Assembly (NCBI GenBank): GCA_949130485.1 | Contig: OX422185.1 | Coordinates: 9,300,118 to 9,364,117, forward strand | DNA length: 64,000 bases | Origin: Agelas oroides | Taxonomy: Eukaryota; Porifera; Demospongiae; Agelasida; Agelasidae | Direction: 5' to 3' | Shown: positions 18,001 to 21,000 of the stretch, one piece after another | How positions within the stretch are numbered: position 1 is the stretch's first letter | Layout of the letters: every line of letters starts with the position of its first letter | Notes under the pieces: generated by a model | Databases searched by the model: none | Seen by the model: the letters and a program-made list of their open reading frames with translations, nothing else | Told to the model about the DNA's origin: nothing | Program-made: the position numbers and the translations under genes

Positions 18001-21000
18001 AGCGCGGAAAATGCAGTACCGTAGTGTCCCGCTAATACGCCCCCTTCGAAAATACACCCCCCCCCTCTTTTCCGCCAAAGTTCCTGCACAGGGTAGTTTG
18101 ACTCGTTATAACGCCCCCCCGGTGAGCGTCTTCTGGAACATCAAAACTACACGTGCTTACTATACGTTGCAAGTGCGTTCAGTAAGACTATAGTAGTCGG
18201 TGAATCTTTTGTAAGTTTTGTGGCTTTTAGAAAAGCCGGTTAGATGTTCCAAGTTTTAAGCTGCTAGTTTAGCAAACAGGTTTATCAGTCTGTCAAGGTG
18301 TTTTTGTTTCCCTCTGAAGATGTACACGCACGGAACCACGAGTCCTTTCCCATCAACTTCAGAACGTCTTCTGTCACCATTGACGATGCAAGTCATCTCG
18401 CTGCCACTCTTGTGCAAGAAATACCAGCAGACTCTGGAAATTTCCCGTGGTACATGACCGACAGTGTTGCCGTTCTTGAGGACAGCTACAGCGAAGTCGT
18501 CGTGAATGTTATTGACCTCGCGTTGAACTGGCAGCTCTTCTCCGATGTAGGGAGACCACGCAGCTTTGTAAACGTGATGTCCGCGAACAGTACTCTCGAT
18601 CCTGAAAGTCGTCGCCATAGTTAGTTGATAGTGAAAGGCATTGATTTCATAGGGGGGGGGGGGGGGCTTATAGTCGAGACTAATTGCATCCTCGAATATA
18701 AGCCCCCCCCCCACTTTAGGCGGGATGTAGTGTACAAAATGGGGGGGCGTATTAACGGGACACTACGGTATATTTAAAAAGCCGTTTTCTCTAAAACTGC
18801 TTAGTTCAAAAGTTAGAAGCGTTAACTTATAAACTTACGGCGACTAAGTCAGCCATTTTCTTCACGTGCAATGTTTCCGTATACCTCTCCGTAACACGTA
18901 CGTAGCGGTAATGTGTGATCACGTGACTTGGAGCACACGGTATAGTGTTTTCCATCGAACGTTTGTGACTGACAGACTGCATGTCTTTTACGAGAGGTTC
19001 AGAAAGGTATGCCCACAGTGTAATACCGTAGTGCATGCAATGGAGTGCAATAGGTCTATGCGTCTGAGAAAGGTATCCGCACAGTGTAATACCGTGGTGC
19101 ACGTGAAGAGATCAGTTTGTGACTGTGGCCATGAAAGGAAAGCACAGTGTACTACTGTTGGGGAGCCTGAGAACGCAATGAAATGTAGAAAAGCCTTACT
19201 GTCTGAGGAAGGGTTATTAGTGGGGAAAGAGAGAGACAAAGTCCGCAAAACAAGTAAGAGAGCTTCTGAAACACGCGAGCAGACTTTGCACAGGTAAGAA
19301 CAGAACCAAACACATCTGGCAAGCATGACAGCTTCTATTGTTCACGAGACAGTGATCGATTCTAGTCAACACACAAGTACAATCACATGCACTGCTGCGC
19401 CGAGGGTTTGGCACTTCAGTGCCTTTCATTTATAAATGCGTAAATTAGCCACATAACTATCAGGTAGTCAGGAAAACCTGCTCCTGGTGTCACAGAACTT
19501 TTTTCAATTGTAAAATTTTGTGCCACACAAGTTCACTAATTGAGATTATATAAACACCTTTCATCAAATAAGCTAGCTAGTTTCAGACATGTCAAATGCT
19601 TAGGAGACCTTCAAATTGTGCAGTGTGGTTCTGGATGCAGCAATTGACGGCACAGATAGCAGCATAGTCTCACAAGCCAGTGAGAGCAGGCTAGCTTGTG
19701 TGACTACTGCCAATTTTAGTGCCCTTCGGAAAAAGTGTAAGCATGAGCATGGGTGTGAGCACATTGGTGTGTATGGTGTAAGCATTTTGGCGTGCAGACC
19801 CAGCAAAATTTTAAACTGTGCAAGCTGACAGTCGTTTCGAGATGTCTGCAGAACCAGATCAAGAAGTTGCTTCTGATATTGGTTGAAGGTTAGGGTTAAC
19901 GTTTCAAGAGATTGTAGCATGGTTGCAGATTGCGCTGAGTACTGTCCACAGAATCTACAAGTGATTCGAAATTAACAGTGGTGTTGAAGCTCTCAAGCAG
20001 CCTTGCAGGACCGAAGCACGCAAGTTGGATGACCTGCATGATTTTGCTGGTTGAGAACCTTAGCTTGAATCTAGTGGAGATTTGATTTATGAAGTCACAG
20101 ATGCTAGCACATCAAGAATGCCACTACACAACATTTGGTCAGATTATAATATTATTCATAAGAGGTATGCAGGCCCAACCTCAGCCTCGTTCCTCAAAAA
20201 CGGGGGGAGGAGAGAGCCTGGCAACATTCTCGAGAAAAGCTGTGGACTTCCGGCGCATCATCATTCATGTGATCAACATTGGACGCTCCCAATTTAGTGA
20301 TGATTGTCATGTGATTTAATAAGCTGCCATGCAATATTGGTACTATACCTGGCAGCAGCACAAGCTATTTACAATTTCGCTCCTCGTCTTCGAGGCATCC
20401 GCAGCTCTGTTGAGTTCTGTGACGCACTTTGTACATGTAAACTCTGAGCTGTGATGTATGGTGAGCGAGTCGATCCCGCAAACTAACTACAGTGAACTTC
20501 GATCTTGGACTTTCTGGATTAGCCTCGTCCCCGGCGCGCGCGAAAAACGGAGAAGCGCCTGGTACACACTGTTTGCGCATGCGTTTAATCTCCCCAAGAT
20601 GTGGGGACTCCGGGCTATTTTCTGATTGTTCCGTGTCATGTGACGTCAGAGTTCGGGCTCGATATAGTAAACTTATCAGGATAATATAATGGCGTGTATG
20701 AAAGTTAGGATTTTCGGCAAGCGATTTCTCAAGCCCTTCAGCGACTTGCGACCCCAAGTATGGTTTTCTGAACTTTCAACTCCCTGCTTGCACTTTGCAC
20801 AGATGAGATTCGGTAAGCCGTCGTCATCGTTCAACGTTTATATCAACAGAGCGCTTATCCTTGATGCTAGTCTTTCCTGGCTAGCTTTTTTACCAAACAA
20901 CGCTACTCTATGGTGGCTATAAGCCACAGAGGATCCGCAAAGGCGGCATACTGATGCTAACTGGGCCACGTCGGGATGTCTACTACTTAAATTTTGTCAG

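Follow-up and report, generated by a model that had tools for sequence, protein, structure and literature searches.

How does a HIRAN reading frame come to lie between transposon-type inverted ends in the genome of the sponge Agelas oroides: as a piece of a host gene captured by a short element, which the first-pass annotation had offered as one explanation, or as a resident gene of the transposon from which that element derives? The locus is on contig C3 of the 259-Mb, 141-contig genome, and the window analysed here is the whole 64-kb stretch that contains it. The parts of the element are listed below, with reference to a longer relative found on contig C5.

18017..18770, no strand: non-autonomous element including the flanking TA on each side, delimited by the single-TA empty sites of two relatives
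18019-18768: element proper, TA excluded
18017..18044, plus strand: left terminal inverted repeat, opening with the TA; the left end of the C5 relative has the identical sequence
18743..18770, minus strand: right terminal inverted repeat, whose closing two bases are the TA; the right end of the C5 relative differs by one base
18029..18061, plus strand: end motif YCGNNWAWANRCCCCC, 16 nt, in two copies (18029-18044 and 18046-18061), both exact matches
18256..18618, minus strand: HIRAN ORF, ATG at 18618 and stop at 18256, 120 codons plus stop
18651..18652, no strand: deletion junction of type A, where the 5' flank of HIRAN abuts the right-end G run and the parent's transposase gene is absent
18657..18712, no strand: subterminal palindrome with G and C runs and two facing end motifs (18662-18677 minus, 18692-18707 plus); also present in the C5 relative

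With its TAs the element is 754 bp long, and its inverted ends measure 28 nt each and are 96% complementary. The pattern YCGNNWAWANRCCCCC, composed after inspection of the element, is matched exactly at 5 places in the 64 kb, every one of them in the two ends of the element (0.00 expected), and we regard these copies as candidate transposase-binding sites. Region 18650-18720, treated as single-stranded DNA, shows strong folding (z -6.0). We detected no transposase in the window copy: a second long frame is absent from its 754 bp, and the plus-strand ORF of 108 aa (18298-18624) has no Pfam match. Elsewhere the window contains a tandem array with a 41-bp unit in 37 copies (3794-5318); a C/T-rich tandem array with a 52-bp unit in 22 copies (29612-30762), which lies within a region of strongly negative GC skew and whose open frame continues into a stretch resembling, by eye, a SAM-type domain exon; and an ORF with a YADD motif (52137-52688) that is, also by eye, probably a reverse transcriptase fragment.

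The profile-HMM comparison assigned the window ORF to the HIRAN family (PF08797) with 31.6 bits, above the gathering cut-off of 24.7 (E 1.5e-7). The frame is open upstream as far as a GTG, which would give a protein of 152 aa. A stronger HIRAN match in the genome (55.3 bits, C20:4534195) may, we presume, be the host HLTF gene, and HIRAN proteins of a similar kind are annotated in sponge and cnidarian genomes. A scan of viral contigs, which detects close relatives only, yielded no confirmed relative. Five PDB sequences were matched by this protein at E up to 1, all of them HLTF (best E 0.0034), and a single-protein structure prediction gave a mean pLDDT of 34.1, too low to be of use. In the alignment with HLTF, whose numbering was placed by hand from the NNPY motif, N90, N91 and H110 are kept, and R71, Y72 and Y93 are replaced by A, A and H. 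The HIRAN domain of HLTF is reported to bind 3'-OH single-strand ends; there the paired substitution N90A-N91A disrupts HIRAN function, and Y72 and Y93 are described as stacking on the bound dinucleotide (PMC4666394).

The element is one of many. Its 27-nt end, with up to 2 mismatches, occurs at 738 genomic sites (373 + 365), and the same pattern read backwards at none. The 40 scored among 371 DNA candidates, the window copy included, are 95-100% identical to it and span positions 1-754 in 38 cases, 1-740 in one and 1-718 in one. From the collected loci we extracted 70 distinct two-ended elements with a pattern that includes the TA and allows 5 substitutions, leaving aside one-ended elements (e.g. 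L057) and seven further pairs on C2 known as coordinates. Thirty-seven of the 70, referred to as the end sample, were reached by the end pattern (on C1 and the start of C2, by position) and not by ORF similarity. TA stands at both termini in 69 of the 70 extracted copies, a count partly built in by the TA of the extraction pattern. For two copies the joined flanks match uninterrupted paralogous DNA with a single TA (L045, 99% over 198 bp; L053, 86% over 206 bp); a third spanning match (L075) sits in tandem repeats, and L055, L087 and L091 have weaker ones. Because of the single-TA empty sites in the two clean cases, we take the TA as the target duplication and 18019-18768 as the element proper. 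L045 (C4:2234071) and L046 (C4:2392145) are short elements of equal score, merged as one element in the extraction; a further pair of equal score lies at C20:5964513 and C20:5977584, and both pairs are probably segmental duplications. The first-pass annotation thus described the copy itself well: the HIRAN domain in the 120-codon ORF, the transposon-type inverted ends, the TA target and the lack of a transposase all hold, and the count of genomic copies with the same ends that it had called for is high.

The origin of the element is indicated by its C5 relative (3984764 to 3987142, about 2.38 kb), in which one pair of ends surrounds both a HIRAN gene and a transposase gene; the outer ends were read as letters, and the genes, within 3984801-3986899, rest on the matches of the family and protein searches. 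The left end opens with TACCGTAGTGTCCCGCTAATACGCCCCCTTCGAAAAT, the same as in the window element, and the right end has the window's palindrome and inverted repeat, the latter differing at one base, with TA on both sides of the whole. The HIRAN frame of this relative (3985005-3985397, minus strand; PF08797 34.2 bits) is 97% identical to the window protein over residues 22-152, and a DDE_1 domain (PF03184) is matched at 3986196-3986711 on the plus strand with 103.5 bits (cut-off 22; model positions 4-177 of 177) in a 455-aa frame. The same two frames, HIRAN, again 97% identical over residues 22-152, and a 455-aa DDE_1, separated by the same 850-bp gap, recur at C3:1982650-1984248, a copy known from its frames alone. 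In both parents the two frames are encoded on opposite strands and point away from each other (C5:3985113/3986196; C3:1984015/1982650). Three features of a pogo-like element are present in the C5 relative: a DDE_1 transposase, terminal inverted repeats and a TA duplication, the last known from the empty sites of two short forms. The window element, in turn, is short, lacks a transposase, shares its ends with a transposase-bearing element and belongs to a high-copy family, as MITEs and deletion derivatives do. In a MITE with a captured host gene, that gene would be absent from the parent; here HIRAN lies inside the C5 parent. Because this relative holds HIRAN and DDE_1 between the same ends, we conclude that HIRAN already resided in the parent transposon, and its capture as cargo by a non-autonomous element, one reading of the first-pass annotation, is not supported. 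The best reading of the window element is that it arose by internal deletion from a two-gene, pogo/DDE_1-type DNA transposon and is itself non-autonomous; we give this a probability of roughly 0.8 as regards anatomy and origin, not function. The deletions in the parent would have taken out the transposase gene together with the intergenic region, retaining the HIRAN gene, both ends and the subterminal motifs, and the resulting short elements would be mobilised in trans.

In the short elements a right-hand segment of the parent, of varying length, is joined close to the start codon of HIRAN. The junctions of the 70 elements fall into types A (33), A2 (2), B (26), C (5) and D (1), with three others; the corresponding figures for the end sample of 37 are 14 for A, 16 for B, 4 for C and 3 others. 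On the HIRAN side the breakpoints lie 33 (A), 29 (A2), 8 (B), 21 (C) and 55 nt (D) before the ATG. Type E (L084, L099) keeps more of the right-hand parent region and lacks the beginning of the ORF (by eye, about codons 1-18), and the breakpoint of L087 is in nearly the same place. B could have arisen from C by another deletion, and A2 may be akin to A; from what each type retains we infer at least four independent deletions (C, D, A and E). All 37 end-sampled elements retain some HIRAN sequence and 34 retain its start region, the ATG being mutated in three of the latter (L060, L082, L100). That the breakpoints cluster near the ATG is a hint that HIRAN has been retained, short of proof given type E; as proof of selection, the retained ORF start is weakened by a breakpoint inside the ORF and by a second one close to it.

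Neither the N:S tests nor the counts of intact frames give any sign that purifying selection has acted on the ORF of the short copies after insertion. An intact ORF is present in 12 of the 36 end-sampled copies examined and missing in 24; the 37th, L081, is too long for the codon table and stands outside this count. Singletons in 65 of the 70 copies have an N:S of 51:20 vs 46.6:18.3 expected (p 1.0), the expectation being derived from the element's own non-coding spectrum and the 70-copy set being partly selected by ORF similarity. Variants in 2-5 copies of the same set give 21:6 vs 14.5:10.2 (p 0.05), with N in excess. For 32 of the 37 end-sampled copies the ratios are 30:8 vs 38.6:16.2 for singletons and 13:2 vs 2.5:1.7 for variants in two copies. 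ORF variants in at least three copies are scarce (3:3 vs 19.2:5.9 in the 65 copies; 2:1 vs 15.9:5.3 in the 32), a scarcity that we reject as evidence of selection since the expectation is inflated by the junction block: in the 32, all 13 non-ORF variants found in five or more copies fall into a single block immediately 5' of the ATG, which marks different deletion junctions. The purifying selection between copies for which the first-pass annotation had proposed a dN/dS comparison is therefore not seen; what we find, a majority of copies without an intact ORF and singletons that fit neutrality, is the outcome that it had itself named as speaking against its reading. Several broken forms are common to two or more copies (a 137-bp deletion in L055, L075 and L097, an early stop, loss of the ATG), which indicates that mobility does not depend on an intact ORF in cis. 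Given the lack of purifying selection among the short copies, a role of HIRAN, if it has one, should be sought in the autonomous elements.

Diverged HIRAN frames also lie 1-2 kb from DDE_1 frames elsewhere in the genome. Among the best-scored matches listed, 9 HIRAN/DDE_1 pairs within 2.5 kb were found, the two parents included, at a distance limit that was set after the coordinates had been viewed; at 5 kb there are 12, again among the best-scored matches listed. The input comprised 120 HIRAN places taken by hand (matches not assigned to the short family, to which the two parents were added; at least one, C15:6221820, may nevertheless be a member of that family) and 149 DDE_1 places, and 2000 circular shifts, with the highest listed coordinate used as contig end, gave a mean of 0.47 pairs and at most 5. 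Six of the nine pairs are convergent, two (the parents) divergent and one on the same strand, so that eight have their frames on opposite strands. Common enclosing ends were seen for the C5 parent, and the seven non-parent pairs, at C3:1093104, C16:2449440, C12:1012798, C3:11138585, C1:23128727, C2:19743298 and C2:9206519, are known by proximity of their frames alone. The HIRAN pieces of two loci near DDE_1 frames (L104 and L105) share with the window protein the pattern GE.....RE..N..D..AVAV...G..VGHVPR..S..C..FL. Identity to the window copy is 52% for the L104 piece and 49% for the L105 piece, and the L104 piece matches the L105 frame at 59%. Over 45 codons, the mismatches at the first, second and third codon positions number 16/13/29, 19/17/32 and 16/16/25 in the comparisons of L104, L105 and the window HIRAN; the third position has the largest share in each, which, judged from these raw counts, is the pattern expected under protein-level selection.

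Several further HIRAN frames came up in these searches. Around C2:11800310-11801810 (L011), a relative of the window element seems to have landed next to or within a piece of a different DDE_1 transposon; the DDE_1 match 245 bp away looks like that piece, and we rejected the two as a pair on grounds of nesting. A second repeated kind of HIRAN frame, of about 102 aa and roughly 38-45 bits and unlike the window's in sequence, is represented by L101 (C17:847430-848580), which has a possible splice donor after the HIRAN domain (by eye); we do not count it as a second HIRAN element, no inverted repeats being present in its 1151 bp. Frames of the same length occur at C4:1319194, C8:1062304, C5:11104181, C2:24795478, C1:9975417, C8:118823, C13:7489497 and other places, their kinship judged by length and score alone, and a frame of the 102-aa type at C2:19743298 is 2.1 kb from a DDE_1 frame. 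Other repeated HIRAN frames, for example the open ones at C1:3556824, C2:23691892, C3:18338063, C15:3867193, C16:2441796 and C17:376638, are 63% identical to the L104/L105 pieces and perhaps represent further families of short elements with HIRAN.

Cut-and-paste transposition leaves 3' ends exposed, both on the element and in the donor gap. The first-pass annotation had suggested that a free-standing HIRAN could bind transposon ends, and the linkage to a transposase makes this more plausible. By analogy with HLTF, the transposon HIRAN may be an accessory protein that binds the 3'-OH ends bared at excision, or those of the donor-site gap, a proposal that we make tentatively, at somewhat less than even odds. 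It might act there as part of the transposition complex or by fending off host remodelling enzymes. In a more specific form, which we consider unlikely as it stands, the free HIRAN would hold host enzymes of the HLTF/Rad5 type off those ends, much as the isolated human HIRAN domain is reported to stop HLTF from removing Cas9 from cut DNA and promoting resection there (PMC11237066). Slightly less likely still is the full version of this idea, in which the free HIRAN of a pogo-like lineage would occupy the 3'-OH ends and shield the post-cleavage complex from removal by HLTF/Rad5-type enzymes, with hundreds of HIRAN-bearing derivatives supplying the protein in trans.

These proposals presuppose that HIRAN and DDE_1 belong together and that HIRAN does something for the transposon, and both points have rivals. 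Insertion of independent mobile elements into one another by chance, in DNA rich in repeats, would explain the proximity of the two genes, and HIRAN repeats and DDE_1 repeats are indeed each common, the shifts yielded up to 5 pairs and the L011 element looks truly nested; we nevertheless hold it to be very improbable, for the C5 end pair encloses both genes within 2.38 kb, the 850-bp spacing is the same in the C3 copy, and 9 pairs stand against 0.47 expected. It is rather unlikely, though a reading to be taken seriously, that HIRAN is passive cargo: a piece of a host gene acquired long ago by the autonomous transposon, with no part in transposition, and kept in the short forms since the deletions stopped short of it. 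The neutral behaviour of the short-copy ORF, the multiplication of broken copies (the common 137-bp deletion, the early stop, the ATG loss) and the type E breakpoint inside the ORF, with that of L087 in nearly the same place, all agree with this; against it stand the HIRAN frames about 49-54% identical to the window's that also lie near DDE_1, the third-position bias in two of these pieces, and the fact that 5 of the 6 named junction types end 8-55 nt before the ATG.

Truncated products act as repressors in other DNA transposons, and the HIRAN of transposase-less copies might similarly brake transposition. An intact HIRAN without transposase is common (12 of the 36 end-sampled copies), and free HIRAN is reported to be dominant negative toward HLTF in vitro (PMC11237066), but the ORF bears no sign of selection after insertion, and we think such a brake improbable. 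Among the functional readings we retain, as a tentative proposal, the accessory protein acting on 3'-OH ends from within the autonomous element. A recurring second gene, from a family whose known members grip 3' ends, would point to a step controlled by the transposon itself, either end protection or donor repair, and if the shielding version were true, the transposon would code for a counter to DNA-end remodelling, and the superfamily would gain a new class of accessory gene. The presence of HIRAN in transposons may also explain the numerous HIRAN frames in this genome.

Most DNA transposons of the pogo/Tc1-mariner group have a single gene, Tec being among the exceptions. The Agelas elements resemble pogo/Tigger-like members of this group (DDE_1, IS630-Tc1-mariner) in their TA duplication, terminal inverted repeats, DDE_1 frame in the longer relative and many short derivatives, and differ in that the parent carries HIRAN as an additional gene on the opposite strand. 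The parent appears to be a new, two-gene form of a known kind of transposon, a family that repeat databases may list without comment. Our literature search, whose scope excluded repeat databases and most subscription papers, found no papers with HIRAN and pogo as whole words and, by title or abstract, none on such an element among those with HIRAN and transposase; a word search of the main text of a survey of pogo-like elements likewise did not return HIRAN (PMC7325037). According to the same survey, the ciliate Tec elements have extra ORFs, one of them in the complement; unlike HIRAN, the extra genes of the ciliate Tc1/mariner relatives code for a site-specific recombinase in Tec and, apparently in TBE, for a zinc finger protein, and the terminal repeats of Tec, at about 700 bp, are also unlike those described here (PMC7325037). 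The window protein resembles the HIRAN domains of HLTF/Rad5 in scoring above the Pfam cut-off and conserving N90, N91 and H110, and departs from them in being free-standing, with 120 residues and no helicase or RING, and in its changed R71, Y72 and Y93. PIF/Harbinger elements are two-gene DNA transposons with a Myb-like DNA-binding accessory protein and many short derivatives; the Agelas transposon is like them in having two genes, a DNA-binding accessory and short derivatives, and unlike them in its transposase, its target site and the domain of its accessory protein.
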